Assembly: GCA_024304985.1 (NCBI GenBank)
Contig: JAMWZC010000006.1
Location: 62,001 to 126,000, forward strand
DNA: 64,000 bases
DNA from: Paracoccaceae bacterium
Lineage (GTDB): Bacteria > Pseudomonadota > Alphaproteobacteria > Rhodobacterales > Rhodobacteraceae
Direction of reading: 5' to 3'
The position numbers were made by a program, and so were the translations under genes. The notes under the pieces are model-generated. The model was given only the letters and a program-made list of their open reading frames with translations. It was not told where the DNA came from and did no database searches. Positions 26,159-48,690 of the stretch are shown here, piece after piece. Numbering within the stretch: position 1 is the first letter of the stretch; each line of letters begins with the position of its first letter.

Positions 26159-27088
26159 TCAGCGCCATATTGCAATCCGCGCCGCGATCCACAGCGTTAC
26201 GATACCCGCCATATCCAACACAAACACCAGATCAAAGGCGGGTGGGTCCACGAATGCCTCCTCCGGCAGGGCATCGGGAAAGGCACCGGGCGCCAATTCC
26301 GACGGAAACAGGAACAGCGCCAGACCGGAATCCATCCCCTGCGCCTCGCCATAGATCAGGAACGCCATGGCATTGTTCACAAGATGAAAGCCGATCGCGG
26401 GGCCCAGATGTCCACTGCGCGCCGTCAGATCGGCGGCCGCCACCCCGAAACAGAAGGCCCATAGCAGGTATTGCACCGCCTCGACATAGGACATGTCCGG
26501 CGAATAATGCGCCGCAGCGAACAGCAGGCTGGGCAGCACCATCCACGACCACGGCGTGTCATACCGCGCCGCCAGTTGTTGCTGCACATAGCCGCGATAG
26601 AACAGCTCCTCGGCCCCCGATTGCACCAGTATGGCCGCCAGCGACAACGGCAAGAGCGCCAGCCACGGCCCAAGGGAGCGCATCTCGGCATAGCGCAGCA
26701 TCTCGGGGTCCAGCCACAGGATCTGCACTGCCAGCATCAGCCCGCCCGCGATCACCGTCACTTGCATGGTCTGGCGCAGCACCGGCCCAACCGGGCCAAG
26801 CAAACTCAGGAAGCCGCGCCCATGAAGACGCCGCACCACCAGCACCACAGCCAGGCCGAGCGTGACAAAACTGAATAATTGCACCCGCAGGCCTGCCGGA
26901 GTCGAGCCGTTCCTCACCTCATACGCGGGGATCACATCAAACAGCGTGAAAAAAGGGTCGATCAGATGCGACGTGGCCAGATAGATCACCTCGACCAGCA
27001 GAACACCCACCACCAGAAGGCGCAGATCAGACACCGCCCGCGCCGGTTCGATGAAACGCGCATGCGCGGCATAGGCGGCGCGCGGCAT
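26159..27088 (-). CDS. CPBP family intramembrane metalloprotease (second copy)
   Basis: A 309-residue membrane protein with about eight hydrophobic segments. The catalytic motif GAEELFYRGY places Glu160, Glu161 and Arg165, with later histidines in AAHYSPDM and GFHLVNNAM, as expected for CAAX-type prenyl endopeptidase-like (Abi/CPBP) proteases. The start overlaps the stop of its paralogue (TGATG), so the two are translated together. Bacterial roles range from bacteriocin immunity to membrane protein processing; none can be assigned here. Confidence 0.85.
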   Translation of the reverse strand: MPRAAYAAHARFIEPARAVSDLRLLVVGVLLVEVIYLATSHLIDPFFTLFDVIPAYEVRNGSTPAGLRVQLFSFVTLGLAVVLVVRRLHGRGFLSLLGPVGPVLRQTMQVTVIAGGLMLAVQILWLDPEMLRYAEMRSLGPWLALLPLSLAAILVQSGAEELFYRGYVQQQLAARYDTPWSWMVLPSLLFAAAHYSPDMSYVEAVQYLLWAFCFGVAAADLTARSGHLGPAIGFHLVNNAMAFLIYGEAQGMDSGLALFLFPSELAPGAFPDALPEEAFVDPPAFDLVFVLDMAGIVTLWIAARIAIWR

Positions 27089-27975
27089 CAGCGGCGGATC
27101 GCCAGACGTGCGGCCAGCCAGCCGATCAGGATCATTGTCGCGTCGATCAGCAGATAGGGGCGCAAGGCCACCGGGTCGGCCATGTCGATCTGCAACCGGA
27201 ACAGCGCCAGCCCCGACAGCGTCCCTTCCGCCGACAGGATCAGCAACGCACTGGCATTCGACATGAAATGCAGCCCGATCGCCGGCCCCAGAGTGCCCGC
27301 CCGCGCGGTCAGATCAGCCGCAGCCAGCGCAAAGCCAGCGGCCCAAAGCATGATCAACCCACCGTTGGCCCCGGCATCCGGGCGGTAATGCAACACCCCG
27401 AACAGCAGCGCAGGGGCGACCATCCAGATCACCGGGCTGCGAAACCGCGCTGCCAGTTGTTGCTGCAGATAGCCGCGGAACAGGATCTCCTCGGCCGATG
27501 TCTGGATCAGGACGGCCAAAAGCGCCAAAGGCAAAAGCAAAAGCCATCGCAAGGGGGGCAGGCCCGCGCTGACCGGATCGTCAAACCCCCATGGCGGCAA
27601 CACCGCAATGGCGATTCCCAACGCGATCAGCACCGCCACCACCGCCCCGAATTGCCGCATCATCAAGGGGATCGGCCCCAAAAGGGTCAAAGGACTGCGC
27701 CGGTGCAACTGCGCGGTCACCACCACCACGGCCAGCGTCATGATCAGAAAGCTGTAAAGCAGGGTCAAGACCCCGGCGGCGGTCTGGCCCGTCCCCTCCA
27801 GCCGGGTGATGTCGCGGTGCAGCGCGTCACCGCCATAGGTCAGCACGGCCATGTGAAACAGCGCAGTCAGGCCAAGCACGATCGCCACGATCAGGACAAG
27901 CCCTAACAGCAGGCGCCAGATCTCGGCCCGGCGGCGTGCGGGCGCGACAAAGGCGGAATGGGCATCATATCGCAT
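27088..27975 (-). CDS. CPBP family intramembrane metalloprotease (first copy)
   Basis: A 295-residue paralogue of the downstream gene, with the same order of segments. The motif SAEEILFRGY gives Glu162, Glu163 and Arg167, and later histidines lie in LHYRPDA and GLHFMSNA. Both copies share QQQLAARF/Y after the motif, so they arose by tandem duplication. The ATG at 27975 is chosen because it aligns with the N-terminus of the paralogue; a TTG at 27990, with GGAG six bases before it, is a real alternative. Confidence 0.85.
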   Translation of the reverse strand: MRYDAHSAFVAPARRRAEIWRLLLGLVLIVAIVLGLTALFHMAVLTYGGDALHRDITRLEGTGQTAAGVLTLLYSFLIMTLAVVVVTAQLHRRSPLTLLGPIPLMMRQFGAVVAVLIALGIAIAVLPPWGFDDPVSAGLPPLRWLLLLPLALLAVLIQTSAEEILFRGYLQQQLAARFRSPVIWMVAPALLFGVLHYRPDAGANGGLIMLWAAGFALAAADLTARAGTLGPAIGLHFMSNASALLILSAEGTLSGLALFRLQIDMADPVALRPYLLIDATMILIGWLAARLAIRR

Positions 27976-28066
27976 AGGGGCGGCCTGCAAGACATTCTCC
28001 GCCCGAAACTAGCGCGCCGGACCGATGCCGAACAGGGGGGTCGTCCCCCGACATCATGTCTTTGCC

Positions 28067-35382: not shown

Positions 35383-36780
35383 TCACACCGTATGCAGATA
35401 CAGATCGTAATCCACATCCGAAATCGTCCGCGCCACGCGGGCATATTCCGCCGCTTTCACCGCCACGAAGGTGCGGTGCATATCCTCGCCCAAAGCGCCC
35501 TTCAGAAAGCCCGAGTCCCGCGCCGCCGCGATCGCCGCGCCCCAGTCGCGCGGGATGCTGTCATCGCCCCCCGCCTCGTCATAGCCATTCCCGGTCGTCT
35601 CGGGCCCCGGATCCATCCGCTGCGCCAGCCCGTGCCTGATCCCCGCCAGCACGGTCGCCGCCACCAGATAGGGGTTTGCATCCACCCCCGCCGGGCGATG
35701 CTCGATCCGCCGCGCGCGCTTGTCGCCCGCCGGGATGCGCAGCGCCACGGAACGGTTATTGACCCCCCAACTGGTGGACACGGGCGCATAGCTCTGGTTG
35801 GCGAAGCGCCGCCATGAATTGGCATGGGGCGCGAACACCAGCATCGATTCCCCCATCGTGTCGCGCAACCCGCCCAAAGCGTGCAGCAAAGGCTCTGACC
35901 AAGCCCCTTCAACGCTTTCGGTAAACACATTCCGCCCCTCGGCGTCCTGCAAGGACACATGGAAATGCATCCCCGAACCGGCATAATCCTCGATCGGCTT
36001 GGCCATGAAACAGGCGGTCACCCCATGCGCCCGCGCCTGCGCCCGCACGATCCGCTTCAACCGCATCAGATCATCGGCGGCCTGCATCACATCAGTGCGG
36101 TAATGCAGCGTCAGCTCATATTGCCCCGGCGCATATTCCGAAATCATCGTCTCGGCCTTGATCCCGGCCTTTTCCGCGCCCGCGTAAATGTCGGAAAACA
36201 ACGGTAGCATCCCATGCAGGTGATCGACCGAATAGACTTCCGTCCGGTGGCTCGCCCGCCCGTCCAGCACATCCGCCGCAGGGCGCACCCGCCCATCCGC
36301 CCCGCGCTCATTGGCCAGCAGGAAGAACTCCAATTCAAACGCGCCTGCGGGATAAAGCCCCTCCGCCGCCATCGCATCCACCTGCGCCTGCAAGGCATGG
36401 CGCGGGTCCGATGTCATCGGCTCCCCCTCCAGTGTATAAAGCGACATCAACACCTCGCCGCGCGGCGGCACGGTGCCGTGCAGGGGTTTCAGCGTGCCGG
36501 GAATGGGCCAGGCCCGCAGATCGCCATCACCCTGATCCCAGATCAACCCGGTCTCATGCACATCCTCGCCGCAGATATCCAGACCGAGGATTGAGATCGG
36601 CAAAAACCGCCCCGACTGGTAGAACGCCAGCAGTTCGTGCCGCCGGATGATCTTGCCCCGCCCGATCCCGTTGGAATCATGCAGCACGATATCGAAGGCC
36701 TCGATCTCGGGGTGCGCCTCAAGAAAGGCTTCCGCCTCGGTCACACTCGCGCCCGAAGGGGCAGGGGTCTTGTTCGTCAT
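35383..36780 (-). CDS. Glutamine synthetase family ligase (gamma-glutamylputrescine synthetase-like)
   Basis: A 465-residue ATP-dependent ligase. It has the N-terminal GS beta-grasp region (about 20-110) and the catalytic barrel with GAFELEFFLL, GQYELTLHYRTD, the ammonium/histidine loop GSGMHFHVSLQD and NRSVALRIPAG. PuuA-type enzymes glutamylate amines such as putrescine; others act on ethanolamine or aniline. It begins one base after the aminotransferase stop, so the two are co-translated. Context suggests amine catabolism rather than ammonium assimilation. Substrate unresolved. Confidence 0.85.
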   Translation of the reverse strand: MTNKTPAPSGASVTEAEAFLEAHPEIEAFDIVLHDSNGIGRGKIIRRHELLAFYQSGRFLPISILGLDICGEDVHETGLIWDQGDGDLRAWPIPGTLKPLHGTVPPRGEVLMSLYTLEGEPMTSDPRHALQAQVDAMAAEGLYPAGAFELEFFLLANERGADGRVRPAADVLDGRASHRTEVYSVDHLHGMLPLFSDIYAGAEKAGIKAETMISEYAPGQYELTLHYRTDVMQAADDLMRLKRIVRAQARAHGVTACFMAKPIEDYAGSGMHFHVSLQDAEGRNVFTESVEGAWSEPLLHALGGLRDTMGESMLVFAPHANSWRRFANQSYAPVSTSWGVNNRSVALRIPAGDKRARRIEHRPAGVDANPYLVAATVLAGIRHGLAQRMDPGPETTGNGYDEAGGDDSIPRDWGAAIAAARDSGFLKGALGEDMHRTFVAVKAAEYARVARTISDVDYDLYLHTV

Positions 36781-36781
36781 C

Positions 36782-38179
36782 TCAATCCTCATCCGGCCCG
36801 AACAGCAGGGCCAACGTCTCATCAAACGCGGCAATCAGCCGGTCGATCTGTGTCGTCGTGGTCACCGGGCTGACCAGCATCATGTTGTGAAAGGGCGCGA
36901 TCAGACAGCCTCGGTTCAGAAGGCAGGTATGCACTACCCCCTCCACCTCCGGCTGATGCGCCGCCTCCGCCTCGGTCCCGTTGCGCAAAGGCCCCGGCGC
37001 ACAGATGAATTCCACCCGCGCCCCCACCCGCACCACATGCCATGGCGCGCCATGCCGGGCGATGGCGGCACTTAACCCCGCCTCCAACCGCGCGGCTCCA
37101 GCCTCCATATGAGCATAAGCCTCCGGCGTCATCACCTCGGCCAGCGTCGCGCGCAAACAGACGAATTGCATCGGGTTCGCCGACAGCGTGGTCCCCATCC
37201 CGGAATGGCCGGGTGCCCGCATGGCATTATAGGCGGCAAACCGCGTGGCCACATCATCCCGCAGCCCCCAGATGGCCGTCGGCATCCCGCCCGCCACGCA
37301 TTTGCCCGCGACAAAAATATCAGGGTCCAGCCCATGCACGGCGGTGTAACCACCCAAGCCGCTGGACACCGTATGCGTCTCGTCAATGATGAGCAGCGCG
37401 CCATACTGCCGCGACAGCCGCCGCAGCCCCTCATGAAAGCCGGGATCAGGCAGGACCATGCAGGAATTCGTCATCACGGGTTCGGTCAGGATCGCCGCCA
37501 CCTCGCCTGTGGCCAGCGCCGCCTCGACCCCTGCCAGATCGTTGAACTCCACCGCGACGGCGGTCCGGGTCAGATCTGCCACCTGCCCGGTCAGGCCGGG
37601 CCGCGCGACGGTCTGACCGTCCCGCAGGGCCACCATCGCCTCATCCACCGTGCCATGATAGCAGCCGTTGAATACCAGCACGCGTGGCCGCCCCGTCACC
37701 GCGCGTGCCACGCGCAGCGCGAAACGGTTGGCATCGGTCGCGGTCGTGGCGATCTGCCAGCGGAAATCCCCGAACCGTTCGACCAGCAGCCGCCCAGCCT
37801 CCAGCGCCGCTTCGGTCGGCAGCATATAGGTCAGCCCGTCCCTTGCTTGCCGCCTGATGGCGCGCGCGACAGGGGCAGGGGAATGGCCGAACATCGATCC
37901 GGTATCGCCCAGACAGAAATCGTCGATACGGTGCCCGTCCAGATCGGTCAGCCGCGCCTTGCGCGCGCGTGCCACCAGCATCGGAAAGGGCATCGGCCAG
38001 TCCTTCATCCAGTGCATCGGCACACCGTCCAGCCAAGCCTCCGTGCCATCGACCAGCGCCGCCTTTGTAACAGGACGCGCGGCGGCATAGACAGCCGCCT
38101 CACGCGCGCGCACCGTTTCCAGTCGCGCGACCAGCACGCCCGCGATGATATCCGCGCTCTGTTCCCTTACCCCGTCCAT
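36782..38179 (-). CDS. Class III (PLP) aminotransferase, glutamate-1-semialdehyde aminotransferase-like
   Basis: A 465-residue PLP enzyme. The Schiff-base lysine is in FVAGKCVAGGMP (about 293) and the cofactor Asp is in IIDETHTVSSG (about 266). The N-terminal GDTGSMFGHSPAP motif is typical of the GSA-aminotransferase-like aspartate aminotransferase family proteins. The start is uncertain: ATG at 38179 is used, while a TTG at 38200 just after AAAGAGG is possible. It forms a two-gene unit with the ligase downstream. It probably transaminates an amine or amino acid whose identity is not evident. Confidence 0.85.
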   Translation of the reverse strand: MDGVREQSADIIAGVLVARLETVRAREAAVYAAARPVTKAALVDGTEAWLDGVPMHWMKDWPMPFPMLVARARKARLTDLDGHRIDDFCLGDTGSMFGHSPAPVARAIRRQARDGLTYMLPTEAALEAGRLLVERFGDFRWQIATTATDANRFALRVARAVTGRPRVLVFNGCYHGTVDEAMVALRDGQTVARPGLTGQVADLTRTAVAVEFNDLAGVEAALATGEVAAILTEPVMTNSCMVLPDPGFHEGLRRLSRQYGALLIIDETHTVSSGLGGYTAVHGLDPDIFVAGKCVAGGMPTAIWGLRDDVATRFAAYNAMRAPGHSGMGTTLSANPMQFVCLRATLAEVMTPEAYAHMEAGAARLEAGLSAAIARHGAPWHVVRVGARVEFICAPGPLRNGTEAEAAHQPEVEGVVHTCLLNRGCLIAPFHNMMLVSPVTTTTQIDRLIAAFDETLALLFGPDED

Positions 38180-38224
38180 GGCGTCATCACCCCGGCTCAA
38201 GCCTCTTTCCTGCTGTATCCATAT

Positions 38225-38392: not shown

Positions 38393-38531
38393 CAGACGGG
38401 TGACGGACTGTTTCCCCGTTTCCATGCCATTAACGATCCCTGACAATACCCCGATATTGTCCGCACCCTGCCGCAGTCGTGCCCGATTTCGACGCGATAC
38501 CGGAAACAACGCAATGAAAAGGGTGTCGCGC

Positions 38532-39437
38532 ATGGATCGTCTGACGGAAATGGAGGCCTTCGCCACGGTTGTGGATCAAGGTGGCTTCACCGATGCGGCC
38601 AAGAAGATGGGTATCTCGAAATCGGCCGTGTCCAAGCATGTGTCCAGCCTCGAGGCGCGTCTGGGGGCGCGTCTGCTGAACCGCACCACGCGCCGAGTCA
38701 GCCCGACCGAGATCGGCCTTGCCTATTACGACCGCGCCCGCCGCGTCCTGAACGATGCAGGCGAGGCGGATGCGCTTGTCACCTCGATGCAATCGGCGCC
38801 ATCGGGCCTGTTGCGGATTTCGGTGGCCACGGATTTCGGGGTCAATCACCTGTCGCCGGTGCTGGGCGATTTCCTGTCGGAATTCCCTGATATCACCGTG
38901 AACATGGTGCTGAACAACCGCTATGTGGAACTGATCAGCGAGGGCTTCGACATGGCCGTGCGGATCGGCGAACTGGAGGACAGCACCCTGCGCGCCCGCA
39001 AGCTGACCGAGACGACCAAGCGGATGATCGCCAGCCCCAGCTATTTCGCCAAATATGGCCGCCCGCAGAAGATCGACGATCTGAACGATCACAAGCTGCT
39101 GCACTACTCCAACCAGTCCAACGGCAACGTCTGGAAACTGACCGCCCCTTCGGGCGAAAAACGGCAGGTCCGCACCGCGGGCTGGCTCAGCGTGAATGAC
39201 GGCCAATCCCTGCTGAACGCCTGTGTCGCGGGGCTTGGCATCGCCTATCTGCCCAGCTTCCTCTATGCCGACGCGATGGAGAAAGGTCTGGTCGAGGATG
39301 CCATTCCCGACCTGCCGGTGGAAACCCAGGGCATCTACGCGGTCTATCCGCCGGGCCGGTTCACCCAGCCAAAGGTGCGCGCCTTCATCGACTTTCTGGT
39401 GCATGAATTCGCAGACAAGGGGCCGACCGAGTGGTGA
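38532..39437 (+). CDS. LysR family transcriptional regulator
   Basis: A 301-residue regulator. The winged helix-turn-helix occupies residues 1-60 (MEAFATVVDQGGFTDAAKKM, GISKSAVSKHVSSLEARLG) and the periplasmic-binding-protein-like effector domain about 90-295. The style (SGLLRISVATDFG, NRYVELISEGFDMAVRIG) matches the PecT/DsdC-like subgroup with degraded effector specificity. The ATG at 38532 follows AAGGG; upstream ATGs at 38514 and 38400 are less likely. It is divergent from the aminotransferase-ligase pair, a possible target. Confidence 0.9.
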   Translation: MDRLTEMEAFATVVDQGGFTDAAKKMGISKSAVSKHVSSLEARLGARLLNRTTRRVSPTEIGLAYYDRARRVLNDAGEADALVTSMQSAPSGLLRISVATDFGVNHLSPVLGDFLSEFPDITVNMVLNNRYVELISEGFDMAVRIGELEDSTLRARKLTETTKRMIASPSYFAKYGRPQKIDDLNDHKLLHYSNQSNGNVWKLTAPSGEKRQVRTAGWLSVNDGQSLLNACVAGLGIAYLPSFLYADAMEKGLVEDAIPDLPVETQGIYAVYPPGRFTQPKVRAFIDFLVHEFADKGPTEW

Positions 39438-39487: not shown

Positions 39488-40351
39488 TCATTTCTGCGCG
39501 GCGCGTCCGGCGAAATGCGCGCGCAGCAGCGTGACCAGTCGCCGTTGCAGCGGGCGATGCCGCTGCCGCAGGGGCAGGGCGGCGAACACCGGCTGCGGAA
39601 TACGCGGCGCACCCGTCACCGCATGGGCCTGACCTGACGTGATCAATGCCTGCGCCGTATCCTCCAGCACATAACCCGCGCCATCCAGCGCAAGGATCAA
39701 CCCCGTGACGGTCGCGTTCTGCCCGCTCGACACCGGCGCAGCCGTCAGTTGCGGCAACAACCCCGCATGGGCGGCGCTGAACGCGGGCGAGATATTGGCC
39801 CGCACATAGCGTTCACCGGGCAAACCGGACAAAGTGACGGGACAGGTCGAGATCATGCGATAGGACAACTCCCCCACCGTCTCGAAATGCAGGTCCGGCT
39901 GCGGCTTCGGCGTGAACAAAAGCGCCAGATCCAGCGCCCCGCTGACCAGATCGGCACACATCTGCGCGGAATAATCCGCCTCGATGTAAAACGCCGCCTC
40001 CGGCAATGCGGCGCGGAACTGGCGCATCCAGTCGCCGATATGATGATCCGTCAGATCGCGCTGCAACCCGATCCGCAGGGTCATGGCGCGGCTGCCCGAC
40101 CCGGCGGTATCCTGCAACGCCTCGGTCCAGCTTTGGCGCAGCGCCCGCGCATGCGGCTCGAATCGCAGCCCCTCGGTCGTCAGGCCCGTGCCCGCGCGGG
40201 ACCGATGAAACAGCCGACACCCCAACGCCGTCTCCAGCACCCGCACCCGCCCCGAAATGGTGGATTGTGTCACCCCCAACCGATCCGCCGTGCGGTTGAA
40301 GCTGCGCGTCTCGCACAGGTCCAGAAAGGTTTCCAGAAGCTCGGTTTGCAT
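39488..40351 (-). CDS. LysR family transcriptional regulator of the demethylase operon
   Basis: A 287-residue LysR protein (MQTELLETFLDLCETRSFNR at the N-terminus, then ADRLGVTQSTISGRVRVLE as the recognition helix). It is divergent from the five-gene operon starting at 40457, the classic LysR arrangement. A 19-bp inverted repeat with an ATC-N9-GAT core lies between them. Two ATGs overlap at 40354 and 40351; the second is better spaced from AGGTG. The open frame continues far upstream, opposite the demethylase gene, but that part is not coding. The inducer is presumably the operon's substrate. Confidence 0.88.
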   Translation of the reverse strand: MQTELLETFLDLCETRSFNRTADRLGVTQSTISGRVRVLETALGCRLFHRSRAGTGLTTEGLRFEPHARALRQSWTEALQDTAGSGSRAMTLRIGLQRDLTDHHIGDWMRQFRAALPEAAFYIEADYSAQMCADLVSGALDLALLFTPKPQPDLHFETVGELSYRMISTCPVTLSGLPGERYVRANISPAFSAAHAGLLPQLTAAPVSSGQNATVTGLILALDGAGYVLEDTAQALITSGQAHAVTGAPRIPQPVFAALPLRQRHRPLQRRLVTLLRAHFAGRAAQK

Positions 40352-40360
40352 CATCGCACC

Positions 40361-40379
40361 TGATCGGTTTTTCCGATCA
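40361..40379. promoter_or_regulatory. LysR-type operator between lysR and the demethylase operon
   Basis: A perfect inverted repeat TGATCGG-TTTTT-CCGATCA, whose core is ATC-N9-GAT, the classical LysR recognition motif. It lies ten bases upstream of the lysR start and about 78 bases upstream of the operon start, as expected for a recognition site serving both. Confidence 0.7.
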
Positions 40380-40456
40380 ATAAACCCAAGTGCTGCGGAT
40401 TGATAGAGGGCGTGCCCGCGCCGATAGTCGCTCTGACAGACGACAAGGAGCAGGGC

Positions 40457-42883
40457 ATGGCAGAGTTTCCGACACAGGCGCGCGTGGTCATCATCGGTGG
40501 CGGCGTGGTGGGGACTTCCGCGCTCTATCATCTGGCCAAGGCGGGATGGACCGACTCGCTTTTGCTGGAGCGCAACGAGCTGACCGCAGGCTCCACATGG
40601 CATGCCGCAGGCAATGTGCCGACCTTTTCGTCCAGTTGGTCGATCATGAACATGCAGCGCTATTCCGCAGACCTCTATCGCCGCTTGGGGGCCGAGGTGG
40701 ATTATCCGATGAACTACCATGTCACCGGATCGCTGCGTCTGGGCCATTCCCGCGAACGGATGCAGGAATTCGCCCGCGTCGTCGGCATGGGCCGCTATCA
40801 GGGGATGGAGCTTGACCTGCTTGGCCCCTCCGAGATGCGCGGCCGCTATCCTTTCCTCGAAACCCACGATCTGCAAGGCGCGCTCTATGATCCCAATGAT
40901 GGCGACATCGACCCCGCGCAACTGACGCAGGCTTTGGCCAAAGGCGCGCGGCAGATGGGCGCGCGGATCGAACGCTTCTGCCCCGTCACCGCTGTCCGCC
41001 GCGAAGGCGACGAATGGGTGATCGTGACGCCGAAGGGCGAGGTGCGCTGCGAAAAGGTCGTGAACGCCGCAGGCTATTACGCGCGCGAAGTGGGCGCGAT
41101 GTTCGGCCGCGACGTGCCCATGATGGTGATGAGCCATCAATATCTTCTCTTCGACACGATCCCCGAACTCGCCGAATGGTCCGCCACACAGGGCGCGAAA
41201 CTGCCCCTCCTGCGCGATGTGGACAGTAGCTACTACCTGCGGCAGGAAAAGAACGGCTTCAACCTCGGCCCCTACGAATCCAACTGCCGCGCCCATTGGA
41301 TCACGCCAGACGATCCCATGCCCGAAGATTTCAGCTTCCAGCTTTTCCCCGACGATCTGGATCGTCTGGAATGGCATATCGCCGACGCCATGGCCCGCGT
41401 GCCCCTGCTGGAAAAGGCCGCGCTGCAAAAGGTGATCAACGGCCCGATCCCCTATACCCCCGATGGCAACCCGCTCATCGGCCCCATGCCCGGCCTGCCC
41501 AATGCGTTCGAGGCGTGCGTGTTCACCTTCGGCATCTGCCAGGGCGGCGGCGCGGGCAAGGTTCTGGCCGAATGGGTGACCGAAGGCGGCACCGAATGGG
41601 ACATGTGGTCCTGCGACCCCCGCCGCTTCACAGGGTTCGAGGATCGCGATTACTGCATCGCCAAGGGGATGGAGGTTTACGGCCATGAATACGGCATGCA
41701 CTTCCCCCATGCCCGCTGGCCCGCAGGCGCCGACAAGAAACTCTCGGCCCTGCACTCCCGCCTGAAAGACGAAGGCGCGCAATTCGGCGCCTATAACGGC
41801 TGGGAACGCGCCAACTGGTTTGCCGCCCCCGGCGATGACATCAGCTGGGACGGCAGCCAGACATGGGACCGCGCCGGCCCATGGGCGCCTCGCGTCGCCG
41901 CCGAATGCGCCGCCGTGCGTGATACATGCGGCGTGCTGGCGATTTCCGGCTTCACCCGCCTGTCGGTCGAAGGGCCGGGCGCGCAGGACTACGTCAATTC
42001 CCTCACCGCCTCGCGCATCCCGCGCGTGGGCCGCGTGGGTCTGGCCTATTTCGCCGATACCAAAGGCCGGATCGTCACGGAAATGTCCGTGATCCCGCGC
42101 AGCGCAGATTGCACATGGCTGATCACCGCAGGTGTCGCGCAAAGCCACGACCGCGAATGGATCGCGCGCACAGCCCCGGATGGCATCACCGTCCATGACC
42201 GCTCGGATAAATACGACTGCCTTCTGGTCACCGGCCCCAAGGCCCGCGCCATCCTCGCTCCGCTCACCGATGCCGACCTCACCCTGCCATGGCTCTCGGC
42301 CCAGGACGCCACCGTCTGCGGCGTCGATTGCACCCTGATGCGTGTCTCCTTCGCAGGCGAACTGGGCTGGGAAGTGCATTGCCCCGCCGCCGACGCCCCT
42401 GTGATCTGGGACGCCGTGACCGCTGCGGGAGCCAAACCCTTCGGCATGTTCGCCCTCAACGCCCTTCGCATCGAAAAGGGCTACCGCGCATGGAAAGGCG
42501 ATCTCTCCACCGATTACACCCTGCTGCAGGGCGGGCTCGATCGCTTCATCGACTGGTCCAAGGACTTTCCCGGCAAAGCCGCCCTGCTGGCCGAACAACA
42601 GGCTGGCGTCACCAAACGTTTCGTGACCCTCACGGTCGCAGCAGGCGATCAGGACGCGCCCTATATGTCCACCCTCTGGCATGACGGGCAGGTCGTGGGC
42701 GAAACCACCAGCGGCGCGTGGGGCTACCGCGTGAACGCATCCCTCGCGCTGGGCATGTTGCGCGCCGATCTGGCCCAACCGGGCACCCTGTTGGAGGTTG
42801 AAATCTTTGGTAAGCGTTATCCCGCAACAGTGATGCCGGATGGCCCGATCTGGGACCCGGCCAATGAAAGGATACGCGCATGA
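40457..42883 (+). CDS. FAD-dependent oxidoreductase / GcvT fusion (dimethylglycine or sarcosine dehydrogenase type), copy 1
   Basis: An 808-residue fusion. The N-terminal FAD domain (about 1-380) has VVIIGGGVVGTSALYHLAKAG at 10-30 and STWHAAGN with His49, the position of the covalent FAD histidine in dimethylglycine dehydrogenase. The C-terminal half (about 430-808) is a GcvT-like aminomethyltransferase that binds tetrahydrofolate (ERANWF, SFAGELGWEVHCPA). Such enzymes oxidise an N-methyl group and pass it to THF as methylene-THF. The start follows AAGGAG. It is the first gene of an operon coupled throughout by ATGA/TGATG overlaps. Confidence 0.92.
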   Translation: MAEFPTQARVVIIGGGVVGTSALYHLAKAGWTDSLLLERNELTAGSTWHAAGNVPTFSSSWSIMNMQRYSADLYRRLGAEVDYPMNYHVTGSLRLGHSRERMQEFARVVGMGRYQGMELDLLGPSEMRGRYPFLETHDLQGALYDPNDGDIDPAQLTQALAKGARQMGARIERFCPVTAVRREGDEWVIVTPKGEVRCEKVVNAAGYYAREVGAMFGRDVPMMVMSHQYLLFDTIPELAEWSATQGAKLPLLRDVDSSYYLRQEKNGFNLGPYESNCRAHWITPDDPMPEDFSFQLFPDDLDRLEWHIADAMARVPLLEKAALQKVINGPIPYTPDGNPLIGPMPGLPNAFEACVFTFGICQGGGAGKVLAEWVTEGGTEWDMWSCDPRRFTGFEDRDYCIAKGMEVYGHEYGMHFPHARWPAGADKKLSALHSRLKDEGAQFGAYNGWERANWFAAPGDDISWDGSQTWDRAGPWAPRVAAECAAVRDTCGVLAISGFTRLSVEGPGAQDYVNSLTASRIPRVGRVGLAYFADTKGRIVTEMSVIPRSADCTWLITAGVAQSHDREWIARTAPDGITVHDRSDKYDCLLVTGPKARAILAPLTDADLTLPWLSAQDATVCGVDCTLMRVSFAGELGWEVHCPAADAPVIWDAVTAAGAKPFGMFALNALRIEKGYRAWKGDLSTDYTLLQGGLDRFIDWSKDFPGKAALLAEQQAGVTKRFVTLTVAAGDQDAPYMSTLWHDGQVVGETTSGAWGYRVNASLALGMLRADLAQPGTLLEVEIFGKRYPATVMPDGPIWDPANERIRA

Positions 42884-43770
42884 CCAAGATCACACTTCTC
42901 GACGGTGGCATGGGGCAGGAACTGGTCCACCGCTCCGGCGACCGGCCCACCCCGCTGTGGTCCACCCAAGTCATGGTCGATCATCCGGGTATCGTGCAGG
43001 CTGTGCATGCCGATTACTTCGCCGCAGGGGCCACCATCGCCACCACCAACAGCTATGCCGTGCACCACGACCGCCTTGCTGGCACCCCGTTGGAAGGGCA
43101 ATTCGACGCCCTCATCGCACTCTCGCTCGCCGAAGCACAAGCCGCCCGCGCCGCCCATGGGTCAGGCCGCATCGCAGGCAGCATCGGCCCGCTGATCGCC
43201 AGCTACCGGCCCGATATCCACCCCGCCCATGATATCGCCGTCCCCCTCTATGCCGAGGTGGCCAATGCGCTGGCCAAAGGCTGCGACCTGATCATCTGCG
43301 AAACCGTCGCCAGCATCGCTCATGCCAAAGCCGCACTTGAGGGCGCAAGCCAATCCGGCAAACCTGTCTGGCTCTCGCTGACCGTGAATGACACCGACGG
43401 CACCCGCCTGCGCTCGGGCGAGGCACTCTCGGATGTCCTCGCCATCGCGGGTGACGCCGCCGCGATCCTCATCAACTGCTCCATGCCCGAGGCGATCCCC
43501 GCCGCTCTGGATATCCTCGCACAAGGCGACAAACCCTTCGGCGCCTATGCCAACGGCTTCACCAAGATCACCGAAGCCTTCCTTGCCCACAAACCCACCG
43601 TCGATGCCCTCTCGGCCCGGCAGGATTTGGGACCAGAGGCTTACGCCAAACACGCCATGGGCTGGATCGCCCAAGGGGCCACCATCGTCGGCGGCTGCTG
43701 CGAAGTTGGCCCCGCCCATATCACCGAACTGGCAGCCCAGATCCGCGCTGCGGGACATGAGGTTGTCTGA
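42880..43770 (+). CDS. Homocysteine S-methyltransferase family protein
   Basis: A 296-residue TIM-barrel methyltransferase. The zinc site is Cys200 (LINCSMPEA) and Cys273-Cys274 (GGCCEVGPAHI). Family members methylate homocysteine from S-methylmethionine or betaine, or act as the homocysteine module of cobalamin-dependent enzymes. It is flanked by two N-demethylases, which suggests a methylated nitrogen donor. It overlaps both neighbours. Donor identity is unknown. Confidence 0.9.
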   Translation: MTKITLLDGGMGQELVHRSGDRPTPLWSTQVMVDHPGIVQAVHADYFAAGATIATTNSYAVHHDRLAGTPLEGQFDALIALSLAEAQAARAAHGSGRIAGSIGPLIASYRPDIHPAHDIAVPLYAEVANALAKGCDLIICETVASIAHAKAALEGASQSGKPVWLSLTVNDTDGTRLRSGEALSDVLAIAGDAAAILINCSMPEAIPAALDILAQGDKPFGAYANGFTKITEAFLAHKPTVDALSARQDLGPEAYAKHAMGWIAQGATIVGGCCEVGPAHITELAAQIRAAGHEVV

Positions 43771-46214
43771 TGTCTGATCTTCCCGCCCGCGCACAGGCTG
43801 TCATCATCGGGGGCGGGGTTTCCGGCTGCTCCGTTGCCTATCATCTGGCCAAGGCTGGCTGGACCGATATCATCCTGCTGGAGCGTAAACAGCTCACCTC
43901 CGGCACCACATGGCACGCGGCGGGCCTCATCGGGCAGCTACGCGGCAGCCAGAACATGACCCGCCTCGCGAAATATTCCGCCGATCTCTATGTCAAACTG
44001 GAAGCGGAAACGGGTGTCGCCACCGGCATGCGCCAGACCGGGTCCATCTCGGTCGCCCTCACCCCACACCGGCTCGAAGAACTCCGCCGTCAAGCCACGC
44101 TCGCCCGCGCCTTCGACGTGGACGTGGCCGAAATCTCCCCGGCCGAGATCAAAGCCATGTATCCTCACCTTGAGGTCGGCGACGTGCTGGGCGGCGTCCA
44201 CCTGCCGCTGGATGGCCAATGCGACCCCGCCAATATCGCCATGGCACTGGCCAAAGGCGCACGCATGCGCGGCGCGCGCATCGTGGAAGGCGTCAAGGTC
44301 ACCCGCGTCACTGACAATGGCACCCGTGTCACAGGCGTCGATTGGGAAACGGCGGACGGCCGCGGCCATATCGCAGCCGATGTGGTGATCAACTGCGGCG
44401 GCATGTGGGGCCGCGATCTGGCCGCAGGGTCCGGCGTCACCCTGCCGCTGCATGCCTGCGAACATTTCTACCTGCTCACCGAACCCGTCGAAGGCTTGGG
44501 CCGTCTGCCCGTCCTGCGCGTCCCCGACGAATGCGCCTATTACAAGGAGGACGCAGGCAAGATGATGCTGGGGGCCTTCGAGCCGAAAGCCAAACCCTGG
44601 GGCATGAACGGCATATCCGAGGATTTCTGCTTCGACAGCCTGCCCGAGGATTTTGACCATTTCCAACCCATCCTCGAACATGCCATGCACCGCATGCCCC
44701 TGTTCCAGACGGCGGGGATCCACACTTTCTTCAACGGCCCCGAAAGCTTCACCCCCGATGACCGCTACTATCTGGGCGAAGCCCCGGAAAAACGTGGCTA
44801 CTGGATTGCCGCAGGCTACAACTCCATCGGCATCGTCTCATCCGGCGGGGCAGGGATGGCGCTGGCCCATTGGATCACTGAGGGCGCGCCGCCCTTTGAC
44901 CTGTGGGAAGTGGATATCCGCCGCGCCCAACCGTTCCAGCGCAACCGCCGCTACCTGCGCGAACGCGTGACCGAAACGCTGGGTCTGCTCTACGCCGATC
45001 ACTACCCCTACCGCCAGGTTGAGACCGCGCGCGGTATCCGCCGCTCGCCCCTGCACCAACATCTGGCCGACCGTGGCGCTGTGTTTGGCGAAGTCGCTGG
45101 ATGGGAACGCGCCAACTGGTTCGCCAAACCGGGGCAGGAGCGGGAATACCGCTACGACTGGCACCGCCAGAACTGGTTCGACAACCAGCACGCCGAACAC
45201 ATGGCCATCCGCAACGGTGTCGGCCTGTTCGACATGACCAGCTTCGGCAAAATCCGGGTAGAAGGACCGGACGCACTCCCCTTCCTGCAACGCCTCTGCG
45301 CCAATCAGATGGACGTGCCCGCAGGCCGCATCGTCTATACCCAGATGCTCAACGACCGGGGCGGGATCGAATCCGATCTGACCGTCACGCGCCTGTCGGA
45401 AACCGCCTTCCTTCTGGTCGTGCCGGGGGCCACGCTGCAACGCGATCTGGCATGGCTGCGCCGCCATCTGGGGGATGACCTCGCCGTCATCACCGATATG
45501 ACCGCATCCGAGGCCGTGCTCTGCCTCATGGGGCCAAAATCCCGCGACCTGATGGCCAGCGTCAGTCCCGATGACATGGGCAACACCGCCCATCCTTTCG
45601 GCACCGCGCGCGAGATCGAGATCGGCATGGGCCTCGCCCGCGCGCATCGCGTCTCCTATGTCGGCGAACTCGGGTGGGAGCTGTATGTCAGCACCGACCA
45701 AGCCGCCCATGTCTTCGAGGCGCTGGAGGAGGCAGGGGCCGACTTGGGCCTCACCCTTTGCGGTCTGCACACGCTGGACAGTTGCCGGATCGAGAAAGCC
45801 TATCGCCACTGGGGCCATGACATCACGGACGAGGATCACGTGCTGGAAGCGGGCCTTGGCTTTGCCACCCGCACAGGCAAGGGCGATTTCATCGGCCGCG
45901 ACGCGGTGCTGCGCAAACGCGAGGCGGGTCTGAACCGCCGCATGGTGCAACTGCTGCTGCAAGACCCCGAACCGATGCTCTTTCATAACGAGGCGCTGGT
46001 GCGCGACGGGCAGATCGTCTCCATCGTCACCTCCGCCAATTACGGCCACGCGCTCGGTGGCGCGGTCGGCATGGCCTATGTGCCTTGCGCGGGCGAAACC
46101 GCCGAACAGGTGCTGGCCTCAACCTATGAAATCGAAGTGGCGGGGCGGCGCTATGCCGCCAAAGCCTCGCTTGACCCGCTGTATGACCCCAAGGGCGAAA
46201 GGATGAAGGCATGA
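43770..46214 (+). CDS. FAD-dependent oxidoreductase / GcvT fusion, copy 2
   Basis: An 814-residue paralogue of copy 1 with the same domains: FAD motif VIIGGGVSGCSVAYHLAKAG at 11-30, TTWHAAGL with His49, and a GcvT half (about 430-814, ERANWF, SYVGELGWELYVS). The first 50 residues are very close to copy 1, while the substrate domain differs, consistent with duplication and specialisation for successive demethylation steps. The start overlaps the previous stop as TGATG. Confidence 0.92.
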   Translation: MSDLPARAQAVIIGGGVSGCSVAYHLAKAGWTDIILLERKQLTSGTTWHAAGLIGQLRGSQNMTRLAKYSADLYVKLEAETGVATGMRQTGSISVALTPHRLEELRRQATLARAFDVDVAEISPAEIKAMYPHLEVGDVLGGVHLPLDGQCDPANIAMALAKGARMRGARIVEGVKVTRVTDNGTRVTGVDWETADGRGHIAADVVINCGGMWGRDLAAGSGVTLPLHACEHFYLLTEPVEGLGRLPVLRVPDECAYYKEDAGKMMLGAFEPKAKPWGMNGISEDFCFDSLPEDFDHFQPILEHAMHRMPLFQTAGIHTFFNGPESFTPDDRYYLGEAPEKRGYWIAAGYNSIGIVSSGGAGMALAHWITEGAPPFDLWEVDIRRAQPFQRNRRYLRERVTETLGLLYADHYPYRQVETARGIRRSPLHQHLADRGAVFGEVAGWERANWFAKPGQEREYRYDWHRQNWFDNQHAEHMAIRNGVGLFDMTSFGKIRVEGPDALPFLQRLCANQMDVPAGRIVYTQMLNDRGGIESDLTVTRLSETAFLLVVPGATLQRDLAWLRRHLGDDLAVITDMTASEAVLCLMGPKSRDLMASVSPDDMGNTAHPFGTAREIEIGMGLARAHRVSYVGELGWELYVSTDQAAHVFEALEEAGADLGLTLCGLHTLDSCRIEKAYRHWGHDITDEDHVLEAGLGFATRTGKGDFIGRDAVLRKREAGLNRRMVQLLLQDPEPMLFHNEALVRDGQIVSIVTSANYGHALGGAVGMAYVPCAGETAEQVLASTYEIEVAGRRYAAKASLDPLYDPKGERMKA

Positions 46215-47791
46215 CTGAGCTGATTGTCGAAGGCTGCGCACCCGAACGTGCAAAGCGATCCGCCCTGCGGTCAGGCGGGCGGGCCGCCCGTGTCGCCGCA
46301 CGCGGCGCACCCTTGGCGGATAACATCCGCCCCGTGCGACCGGGCATGTCCGGCGGGCAATACAAACCCCTGACCGAGGCCGGGATGCAGCGCATCCATC
46401 AAGCCGCTCTCGACGCGCTGGAAACCATCGGTCTGGCCGACGCGCCCCCAAGCGGCGTGGAAATCATGACCCGCGCAGGTGCGATCCTCGGCACCGATGG
46501 CCGCCTGCGCTTCCCGCGTGCCTTGGTCGAGGATATGCTGGCCCTCGCCGCCCGCGACATCACCCTGTTTGGCCGCGATGCGAAACATGATCTGCACCTG
46601 TCGGGCAGCAAGGTCCATTTCGGCACGGCGGGGGCGGCGGTGCATATCGTCGATCTGGAAACCAACAGCTACCGCGACAGCACGGCGCAAGACCTCTACA
46701 ATGCCGCGCGCCTGACCCATCATCTGGACAATGTGCATTTCTTCCAGCGGGCCATGGTCTGCCGCGATGTGCTGGATAACTTCCAGATGGATATCAACAC
46801 GCTTTATGCCTGCTGCGCGGGCACCACGAAACATGTGGGCACGTCCTTCTCGGACCCCTCCCATGTCGATGGATGCTTCGACCTTCTGCACATGATCGCG
46901 GGCGGAGAGGCGGCGTGGCGCGCGCGCCCCTTCGTCAGCAATTCCAACTGCTTCGTCGTCCCGCCGATGAAATTCGCGACGGAAAGCTGTCAGACGATGG
47001 AAGCCTGCATCCGCGCCGGTATGCCCGTCCTGCTTCTGTCCGCTGGCCAAGCCGGCGCCACCGCACCCGCCCCCATCGCGCTGGCCATCGTGCAGGCGGT
47101 CGCAGAATGTCTGGCAGGCGTGGTCTATGTCAACGCCATGTCGCCGGGCCATCCTGCGATCTTCGGCACATGGCCCTTCGTGTCCGACCTGCGCACAGGC
47201 GCCATGTCCGGCGGCAGCGCGGAACAGGCGCTGCTGACCGCAGGCTGCGCCCAGATGCACCAGTTCTACCGCCTGCCGGGGGGGGCTGCCGCAGGCATCG
47301 CCGACAGCAAACTTCCCGACATGCAGGCGGGTTGGGAACAGGGCATCTCCAACGTCCTCGCGGGCCTCTCCGGCCTGAACATGGTCTATGAGGCGGTGGG
47401 GATGCATGCCTCCCTCCTTGGCTTCTGCCTTGAATCGCTGGTTCTGGGCGATGACATGCTGGGCCAGGTCATGCGCTGCGTGCGCGGCATCGACGTGACC
47501 GAGGACAGCGTGAGCATCGAAGCGATGCGCCAGGTCTGCCTTGAAGGTCCCGGCCATTATCTGGGATCGTCGCAAACGCTGGCCCTGATGCAGACCGAAT
47601 ATATCTACCCCGAAATTGCCAACCGCATGAGCCCAAAGGAATGGGCCGAGGCGGATAAACCCGACCTGCTGCGCGTCGCCCGCGCCCGCATGGACCGCAT
47701 CCTTGCGCACTCAGGTTCGCTGATTGACCCGGCCACCGACGCAGCCGTGCGCGCCAAGTTCCAAATCGCCTTTGACGGACGGCCAGCATGA
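46211..47791 (+). CDS. Trimethylamine methyltransferase family protein (MttB-like, non-pyrrolysine)
   Basis: A 526-residue protein of the MttB superfamily, TIM-barrel type (VHFGTAGAAVHIVDLET, FQRAMVCRDVLDNFQMDINT, GMPVLLLSAGQAGATAPAPIA). No in-frame TAG interrupts it, so it is the pyrrolysine-free branch that includes glycine betaine methyltransferase MtgB. Those enzymes usually transfer the methyl group to a separate corrinoid protein. None is encoded in the operon or anywhere in this window. It overlaps both neighbours. The acceptor is therefore unknown. Confidence 0.9.
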   Translation: MTELIVEGCAPERAKRSALRSGGRAARVAARGAPLADNIRPVRPGMSGGQYKPLTEAGMQRIHQAALDALETIGLADAPPSGVEIMTRAGAILGTDGRLRFPRALVEDMLALAARDITLFGRDAKHDLHLSGSKVHFGTAGAAVHIVDLETNSYRDSTAQDLYNAARLTHHLDNVHFFQRAMVCRDVLDNFQMDINTLYACCAGTTKHVGTSFSDPSHVDGCFDLLHMIAGGEAAWRARPFVSNSNCFVVPPMKFATESCQTMEACIRAGMPVLLLSAGQAGATAPAPIALAIVQAVAECLAGVVYVNAMSPGHPAIFGTWPFVSDLRTGAMSGGSAEQALLTAGCAQMHQFYRLPGGAAAGIADSKLPDMQAGWEQGISNVLAGLSGLNMVYEAVGMHASLLGFCLESLVLGDDMLGQVMRCVRGIDVTEDSVSIEAMRQVCLEGPGHYLGSSQTLALMQTEYIYPEIANRMSPKEWAEADKPDLLRVARARMDRILAHSGSLIDPATDAAVRAKFQIAFDGRPA

Positions 47792-48690
47792 TGCGGCTGG
47801 GTTTCATCGGTCTGGGCAATCTGGGCGGTCATCTGGCCGCCAGCCTGCTGCGCGCAGGGTTCCCCGTCACGGTCCACGACCGCGACCGTAGTTTGGGCGA
47901 CCGGCTTCTGGCGATGGGGGCCACATGGGCGGACAGCGCCGCCGACGTGGCCGCCGCGTCGGATACCGTTCTGACCTGCCTGCCATCCCCCGCCGTGTCC
48001 GAGGCGGTGCTGCACCAGATGCTGCCCGCCATGAAACCGGGCAACACATGGGTCGAGATGTCCACGCTGGGCCGCGACGACATCCTGCGACTGGCGGCCA
48101 TCGCCGGGGCGCATGGTGTGCGGATGCTGGAATCCCCCGTCACCGGCGGCGTCCATCTGGCCGCGCGGGGCGAGATCACCGTGCTGGCCGGTGGCGACAA
48201 GGACGTGTTCGAGGCGCATCGCACGGCGCTGGAGGCGATGGGCAACCGCATCTTCCACATCGGCCCCTTGGGATCGGCGGCGGTCATCAAGGTCATCACC
48301 AATATGCTGGCCTTCATCCATCTGGTCGCCGATGGCGAGGCCTTGATGCTGGCCAAACGTGCAGGGCTGGACCTCAAGACCGCGTGGGAGGCGATCTCCG
48401 CCTCCTCCGGCACCTCCTTCGTGCATGAAACCGAAGGCCAACTGATCCTGAACGGCAGCTACGACATCGCCTTCAGCATGGATCTGGCGCTGAAAGATCT
48501 GGGCTTCGCCATGGGCTTTGGTCAGGAATTCGGCGTCCCGCTGGATCTGGCGGGGCAGGTGCAGCAAACTTTCGTCAAGGGCCGCGCCGCCTACGGCGGT
48601 CAGGCGCAATCCACGCAGATCGTGAAACTGCTGGAAGATGTGCTGGGCACGGACCTGCGGGCCGAAGGCTTTCCGGCTCGGTTGGAATGA
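47788..48690 (+). CDS. Beta-hydroxyacid dehydrogenase (3-hydroxyisobutyrate dehydrogenase family)
   Basis: A 300-residue NAD(P)-dependent dehydrogenase. The dinucleotide motif is GFIGLGNLGGHLAASLL at 5-21, the family substrate loop is ESPVTGGVHLAARGEI near 115-130, and the catalytic lysine is in VIKVITNMLAF near 171. Last gene of the operon; its start overlaps the mttB-like stop. It probably oxidises a hydroxyl or reduces a semialdehyde formed after demethylation. Substrate unresolved. Confidence 0.88.
   Translation: MMRLGFIGLGNLGGHLAASLLRAGFPVTVHDRDRSLGDRLLAMGATWADSAADVAAASDTVLTCLPSPAVSEAVLHQMLPAMKPGNTWVEMSTLGRDDILRLAAIAGAHGVRMLESPVTGGVHLAARGEITVLAGGDKDVFEAHRTALEAMGNRIFHIGPLGSAAVIKVITNMLAFIHLVADGEALMLAKRAGLDLKTAWEAISASSGTSFVHETEGQLILNGSYDIAFSMDLALKDLGFAMGFGQEFGVPLDLAGQVQQTFVKGRAAYGGQAQSTQIVKLLEDVLGTDLRAEGFPARLE

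Follow-up and report, generated by a model that had tools for sequence, protein, structure and literature searches.

In Ruegeria pomeroyi, according to the part of a 2025 PNAS article drawn on here (PMC12478193), one trans-acting set of proteins serves both glycine-betaine demethylation and methionine synthesis. Mutants in mtgC and mtgD were methionine auxotrophs, and did not grow on glycine betaine even with methionine. Up to seven PF06253 open reading frames (ORFs) were reported per genome, and the authors suggest additional substrates. Here we describe a five-gene operon (genes A to E, positions 40457-48690, + strand) of a Paracoccaceae bacterium, in which gene D encodes a protein of this same PF06253 (MttB) superfamily. 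The operon lies in a 64-kb stretch of DNA, called the window below, that covers positions 62001-126000 of contig C10 in an assembly of 13 contigs (3.76 Mb, 98.3% complete). On balance, we judge that the operon encodes one B12-dependent demethylation and two oxidative ones, acting on a trimethylated quaternary amine, probably one other than glycine betaine.

The operon and its proposed partners encoded elsewhere

An original prediction, made from the letters of the window, had described five genes overlapping by one to four bases. An ORF check confirmed both their coordinates and their overlaps, which are 4 (A/B), 1 (B/C), 4 (C/D) and 4 (D/E) bases. A (40457-42883, with an alternative in-frame TTG upstream at 40400) and C (43770-46214) encode FAD-GcvT proteins with the Pfam domains DAO, FAO_M, GCV_T and GCV_T_C, and are demethylases of the dimethylglycine dehydrogenase (DMGDH) type or, in the case of A, the DMGDH/sarcosine dehydrogenase (SARDH) type. 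B (42880-43770) encodes a homocysteine S-methyltransferase-like protein (S-methyl_trans, PF02574, 200 bits). D (46211-47791) encodes a non-pyrrolysine methyltransferase of the MttB superfamily, which matches PF06253 with 351 bits over positions 1-490 of the 500-position profile. E (47788-48690) encodes a beta-hydroxyacid dehydrogenase of the 3-hydroxyisobutyrate-dehydrogenase type (NAD_binding_2 and NAD_binding_11), whose closest solved relative is 2-hydroxymethylglutarate dehydrogenase (3cky, 159 bits).

Conservation was assessed in the best 80 of 582 D relatives (75-96% identity, the nearest loci), and gene neighborhoods in the 58 of these in which D is flanked by 7 kb or more on each side, 22 loci with short flanks having been dropped. 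Within 7 kb of D, a LysR gene was present in 47 of the 58, C in 46, A in 44 and E in 37. Then followed a betaine-aldehyde-dehydrogenase-like aldehyde dehydrogenase (ALDH, 22), cystathionine-gamma-lyase-type (13), MDR (7), GMC (6), PEP-mutase-like (6) and Rieske (5) genes, B (4) and BKACE (1). The three genes occur together more often than by chance: in 45 of the 58 loci, the retrieved stretch also contained both A and C with an identity of at least 60%. The recurrent core is a divergent LysR gene with A, C and D, often accompanied by E.

Both flavoenzymes have the four domains and the flavinylation histidine of DMGDH/SARDH-type enzymes (His49 in each, and a histidine in 56/56 A and 62/63 C sequences). 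DMGDH structures are their best matches among solved structures, with 573 bits for A and 467 bits for C. An aspartate of GcvT (T-protein) supports tetrahydrofolate (THF) chemistry. It is kept in all 63 C sequences (Asp488 in the window) and in 49 of the 56 A sequences. In A of the window it is replaced by Ala495, as it is by alanine in loci L012, L013 and L021, and asparagine occupies the position in three others. C probably hands its carbon to THF. As alanine has taken the place of the conserved aspartate in A of this lineage, that enzyme may release formaldehyde. The idea that both enzymes pass methyl groups to THF thus remains plausible for C and is called into question for A. Two other FAO_M proteins, also FAD-GcvTs, are encoded in the genome at C1:278140 and C2:97315. 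The FAD-GcvT of the former region (L151, 7920-10448) has a glutamate at the GcvT aspartate position, as do FAD-GcvTs adjoining MttB genes in Mesorhizobium and Roseobacter litoralis.

No match to PF02607 (the corrinoid cap domain) or PF14574 (RACo) was found in the 64-kb window, in agreement with the original prediction that no corrinoid protein or activase is encoded there. The wider implication, that the corrinoid system is missing, was rejected, because the set was located on other contigs. A genome search for corrinoid and RamA homologues, which had been proposed as a check, identified an MtgC-type corrinoid protein on C1 (C1:121571-122269; PF02310, B12-binding, and PF02607, 68 bits, at C1:121619) in a gene row with an MtgE-type protein (PF02574) and DUF1638. 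A second PF02607 match, on C11, was borderline (23.4 bits against a cut-off of 23). The only PF14574 match in the genome (286 bits) is a RamA/RACo activase at C12:134621-135436, which also carries the RACo middle and linker domains and thus has three RACo domains in all. PF00809 proteins number two: the one on C12 is MtgD-type, with 399 bits against the NCBIfam cut-off of 259 for methyl-THF:corrinoid methyltransferase, and the one on C1 is probably a dihydropteroate synthase. Adjoining mtgD is a MetF-like gene, which has no Pfam match and reaches only 20.6 bits in NCBIfam, but scores 171 bits with 7xg9, a 5,10-methylenetetrahydrofolate reductase of solved structure. MtgC, MtgD and RamA of an MtgB system are thus all present. 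MetE was not found in the genome in a PF01717 search. The MtgE-type protein and B are the only PF02574 proteins; with two such proteins, two PF00809 proteins and no MetE, no MetH pattern emerged from the PF02574 and PF00809 searches. Since the trans-acting set published for R. pomeroyi, as given in the part of the article drawn on (PMC12478193), matches these genes, it largely answers the puzzle of the missing corrinoid protein.

In the mechanism that we propose, D would move one methyl group to the cobalamin of the C1 MtgC-type protein, which would be common to the split methionine synthase. MtgD would transfer the methyl to THF, the MetF-like enzyme encoded beside mtgD would oxidize it, and RamA and DUF1638 would re-reduce the cobalamin. 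Judging by DMGDH homology, the two FAD-GcvTs would oxidatively demethylate first the tertiary and then the secondary amine, and either of them may act first. The carbon skeleton would be handled by E and, in relatives, also by the betaine-aldehyde-dehydrogenase-like enzyme. B would be an optional extra that could make methionine from the same onium compound or methyl pool. The findings support stepwise demethylation as originally predicted, with the MttB-like protein probably removing the first methyl before two DMGDH-like enzymes act. Both the operon itself and its logic as a demethylation route hold up.

Phylogeny, active site and cofactor of D

The match of D to PF06253 is full-length, placing it in the MttB superfamily, and its identity to the two further MttB paralogues of the same genome, on C1 (L008, 8307-9860) and C7 (L009, 8205-9764), is 26-27%. 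These paralogues are not linked to corrinoid genes. Among 20 mtgC loci from other families of Alphaproteobacteria, 10 contained an MttB gene, which was nearest to the C1 paralogue in 8 cases, to the C7 paralogue in 2 and to D in none. The C1 type is thus the commonest MttB type in mtgC loci of other families. In a maximum-likelihood tree of 51 rows, 34 D-type rows formed a clade with 100/100 support, which takes in relatives from the R. pomeroyi megaplasmid, Roseovarius, Mesorhizobium, Roseobacter litoralis and Leisingera. A separate 16 rows hold Desulfitobacterium hafniense MtgB, PDB entry 4yyc and the C1 and C7 paralogues. The root of this tree serves for drawing only, the pyrrolysine MttB is a long branch, and R. 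pomeroyi MtgB1/MtgB2 (SPO2108/SPO2134) were left out; within these bounds, D fell outside the clade of D. hafniense MtgB and the mtgC-linked MttBs.

D was also considered as a pyrrolysine MttB and rejected as such, having Ile363 at the Pyl334 column and no internal stop. Tyr364 of MttB is an active-site residue, as stated in the part of PMC9842639 drawn on. At this column, 31/34 rows of the D clade have tyrosine (Tyr393 in D), whereas 11/12 rows of the MtgB group have leucine. The following column holds glutamate in 33/34 D-clade rows (Glu394 in D) and histidine in 16/16 rows on the MtgB side, a histidine that may contact the substrate.

These differences bear on the proposal that the operon simply converts glycine betaine to glycine, with D as a third MtgB-like methyltransferase, C as dimethylglycine dehydrogenase and A as sarcosine dehydrogenase. 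We regard this as possible but rather doubtful. The closest solved relative of D is indeed the glycine betaine methyltransferase of D. hafniense. However, D lies outside the MtgB group with full support, differs from it by glutamate for histidine, and scores nearly alike with the pyrrolysine MttB (181-182 bits) and MtgB (185 bits). Moreover, the genome already has the C1 MttB, which belongs to the mtgC-linked clade, as well as two more FAD-GcvTs, and glycine betaine would leave E and the ALDH without an evident role. Another trimethylammonium compound is a more likely substrate of D than glycine betaine, for which the C1 MttB is a closer MtgB candidate.

The co-occurrence of D and MtgC was examined in a set of 295 genomes that samples the family with one genome per genus, a D-type gene being defined by an E-value of 1e-60 or better, a threshold that excludes the two other MttBs of the present genome. 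A D-type gene was found in 175 genomes (166 attain 1e-200) and MtgC in 274. MtgC was present in 168/175 D-positive and 106/120 D-negative genomes (Fisher p 0.019), a modest association because MtgC is nearly universal in the family.

A number of observations weigh against demethylation of a compound other than glycine betaine by D, MtgC, A and C together. Concerning the substrate, the solved structures nearest to A and C are those of dimethylglycine dehydrogenase, a Mesorhizobium relative with 43% identity has an annotated glycine betaine ABC transporter in its vicinity, and some loci near D have a carnitine 3-dehydrogenase above cut-off (L090) or GbcA-like Rieske and betA-like (choline-dehydrogenase-like GMC) proteins, both below cut-off; these neighbors would fit glycine betaine. 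Concerning the corrinoid protein, the base rate of MtgC (93%) makes its co-occurrence with D weak evidence, and seven of the 175 D-positive genomes (G008, G068, G136, G156, G160, G224 and G236) are without detected MtgC. Three of these (G136, G160, G224) are 96-97% complete, yet each is in 100 or more contigs. MtgC, MtgD (query: L153, 9032-10090) and MtgE were found in 0/80 nearest D loci. Concerning the flavoenzymes, the exchange of aspartate for alanine speaks against normal THF capture by A. In addition, neither A nor C is beside D in 9 of the 58 loci with full flanks, nor in 18 of 20 hand-picked distant family members (67-74% identity, some with short retrieved stretches), where A and C were found in L133 and C in L138. 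D is therefore not invariably teamed with these enzymes. An aminotransferase-like gene was found near D in 9 of these 20 distant loci (D was unpicked in 7 of the 20).

The absence of a corrinoid gene from the nearest loci, the D-positive genomes without detected MtgC and the active-site region unlike that of MtgB could also be taken to mean that D is no longer a methyltransferase, or that its methyl acceptor is other than MtgC. Of all explanations, we give this one the least credence, since the MttB domain is full-length, D can be aligned over at least 450 residues with solved structures of MttB and MtgB, and tyrosine is retained at the Tyr364 column of MttB in most of the clade.

Taking up again our preferred reading, a more specific version of it has perhaps an even chance of being correct. 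Here, D would represent an uncharacterized clade of aerobic cobalamin-dependent N-methyltransferases for a quaternary amine other than glycine betaine, borrowing MtgC of methionine synthase and controlled by its own LysR regulator with a palindrome. More than half of the genera sampled from this family would carry the clade, which would also occur in Rhizobiales. Divergent relatives, on the R. pomeroyi megaplasmid and in Leisingera and Mesorhizobium, would have diversified toward other N-methylated amino acids or sulfonates.

Gene B and the divergent regulator

The translation of B contains INCS and GGCC, which we take to be its Zn-binding Cys motif. Together with the PF02574 match, this identifies B as homocysteine S-methyltransferase-like. 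As betaine-homocysteine methyltransferase (BHMT) it was rejected, because the homocysteine S-methyltransferase structure 5dml is the closer match, with 87 bits compared with 39-40 bits for BHMT. B is under every NCBIfam cut-off, with 62.5 bits against 338 for the BHMT model. It was present, ahead of C, in 6/80 nearest loci (L012, L013, L024, L033, L045, L076). The exact order A-B-C-D-E, whose conservation had been proposed as a check, occurred in 2/80 (L012, L013) and A-B-C-D in 3/80. B was therefore rejected as a defining part of the operon and is a local addition. Nor does Ala495 of A track the presence of B: A sequences were obtained from five of the six B-bearing loci, and they have alanine in L012 and L013 and aspartate in L024, L033 and L076, with alanine also in L021, which is without B.

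These data also bear on the acceptor of the first methyl group, for which the original prediction had named either the homocysteine methyltransferase or a distant corrinoid protein. In the first case, B would transfer the methyl to homocysteine in a BHMT-like, cobalamin-free reaction, and D would be auxiliary. The position of B, overlapping A and C and sitting between them, its membership in PF02574 and its place before C in six loci are in line with this idea. However, it is very unlikely, considering that B is absent from 74/80 nearest loci in which A, C and D persist, and is closer to 5dml than to BHMT and below all NCBIfam cut-offs. The alternative, a distant corrinoid protein that D may use, is the supported one. 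In R. pomeroyi, according to the part of the article drawn on, genetic evidence showed that a shared MtgC takes part in glycine-betaine demethylation (PMC12478193).

Divergent to the operon lies a LysR gene, LysR2 (39488-40354, - strand; HTH_1 and LysR_substrate; the scan began at 40384, and the start codon at 40354 was read from the sequence). A palindrome in front of the operon, TGATCGG-N5-CCGATCA-ATA (40361-40382, + strand), is a putative LysR2 binding site. A motif search in 39 non-redundant gaps between LysR and A (32) or LysR and D (7), from related and thus not independent bacteria, gave a motif of 22.1 bits (best of six runs), compared with 8.4-8.6 bits in three shuffled sets. That the same box precedes A in one lineage and D in a second suggests one regulon. 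The strict pattern occurred in 19/29 chosen genomes, and a comparison of coordinates placed 19/21 matches at the LysR locus, the two others being inside long open frames. In the present genome, a shorter core pattern had 4 matches and the full palindrome only the one at the operon. The palindrome thus recurs about once per genome. The regulator thus seems to serve this operon specifically, and the operon is probably under the control of the divergent LysR.

A second LysR gene follows past LysR2 (scanned as 38496-39434). Further on, a glutamine-synthetase-like gene and a PRK07046-type transaminase gene are found at 35383-38200 (- strand). This pair may be operon-linked in its lineage, because homologues occupy the same position in L012 and L013. 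Two adjacent Rce1-like genes (CAAX protease family) are present at 26159-27990 (- strand).

Substrate clues and known systems

Two relatives of D lie among quite different partners. In R. pomeroyi DSS-3, a megaplasmid stretch (L145, 10953-21249) contains a LysR gene, a D-clade MttB, an aminotransferase, two FAD-GcvTs and a TPP enzyme. The latter is nearest to sulfoacetaldehyde acetyltransferase (401 bits, under the cut-off of 620), and an N-methylated taurine (taurobetaine) could, speculatively, be the substrate of this cluster. On a Leisingera caerulea plasmid (L150, 6562-18436), the D-clade MttB stands amid OYE-type, GbcA-like Rieske and mandelate-racemase-type genes, and GMC, cystathionine gamma-lyase and TPP genes are also present. 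This gene set presumably resembles hydroxyproline-betaine clusters. Such variety of partners agrees with a quaternary-amine demethylase family whose members differ in substrate, and glycine betaine is possible for the present operon. Carnitine, choline, hydroxyproline betaine, trimethylhomoserine (a betaine-lipid headgroup) and taurobetaine were each considered as its substrate, and none was established, as the neighbors in relatives diverge.

Judged by titles and the start of abstracts, no description of an operon with MttB and two FAD-GcvTs was found among the matches listed for the Creative Commons PMC literature. The original view of the operon as an undescribed pathway may hold mainly with regard to the substrate. 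For the missing corrinoid protein, the published work provides most of the explanation, as far as the part drawn on goes (PMC12478193). The same part of the article proposes that many MttB paralogues share one corrinoid protein (PMC12478193), and the D clade offers a concrete test of this proposal. If D acts on a compound other than glycine betaine, marine and soil bacteria have a common source of one-carbon units and nitrogen that has gone unrecognized, and their demand for B12 extends further than is known.

Among known systems, glycine betaine catabolism with dimethylglycine and sarcosine dehydrogenases is similar in using two FAD-GcvTs after the first methyl has been removed. The present operon differs from it by E, the optional B, Ala495 in A and its own LysR regulator. 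With the anaerobe MttB superfamily (MtgB of Desulfitobacterium, pyrrolysine MttB of Methanosarcina and the paralogues of Eubacterium limosum), D shares the full-length MttB domain and, by homology, would share the removal of one methyl from a quaternary or tertiary amine. Unlike those systems, it has no adjacent corrinoid gene and no pyrrolysine, is accompanied by aerobic DMGDH-type partners and belongs to a separate clade. Another close system is MtgBCD(E) of R. pomeroyi, together with the split methionine synthase described for Phaeobacter inhibens, as presented in the part of the article drawn on (PMC12478193). The shared features are a PF06253 protein, trans-encoded MtgC-, MtgD-, MtgE-, DUF1638- and RamA-type and MetF-like genes, DMGDH-type demethylases, and no MetH or MetE found in the genome. 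As differences, D stands outside the mtgC-linked MtgB clade, has glutamate in place of histidine in the active-site region, and is usually found together with an A and a C of its own in a LysR operon.

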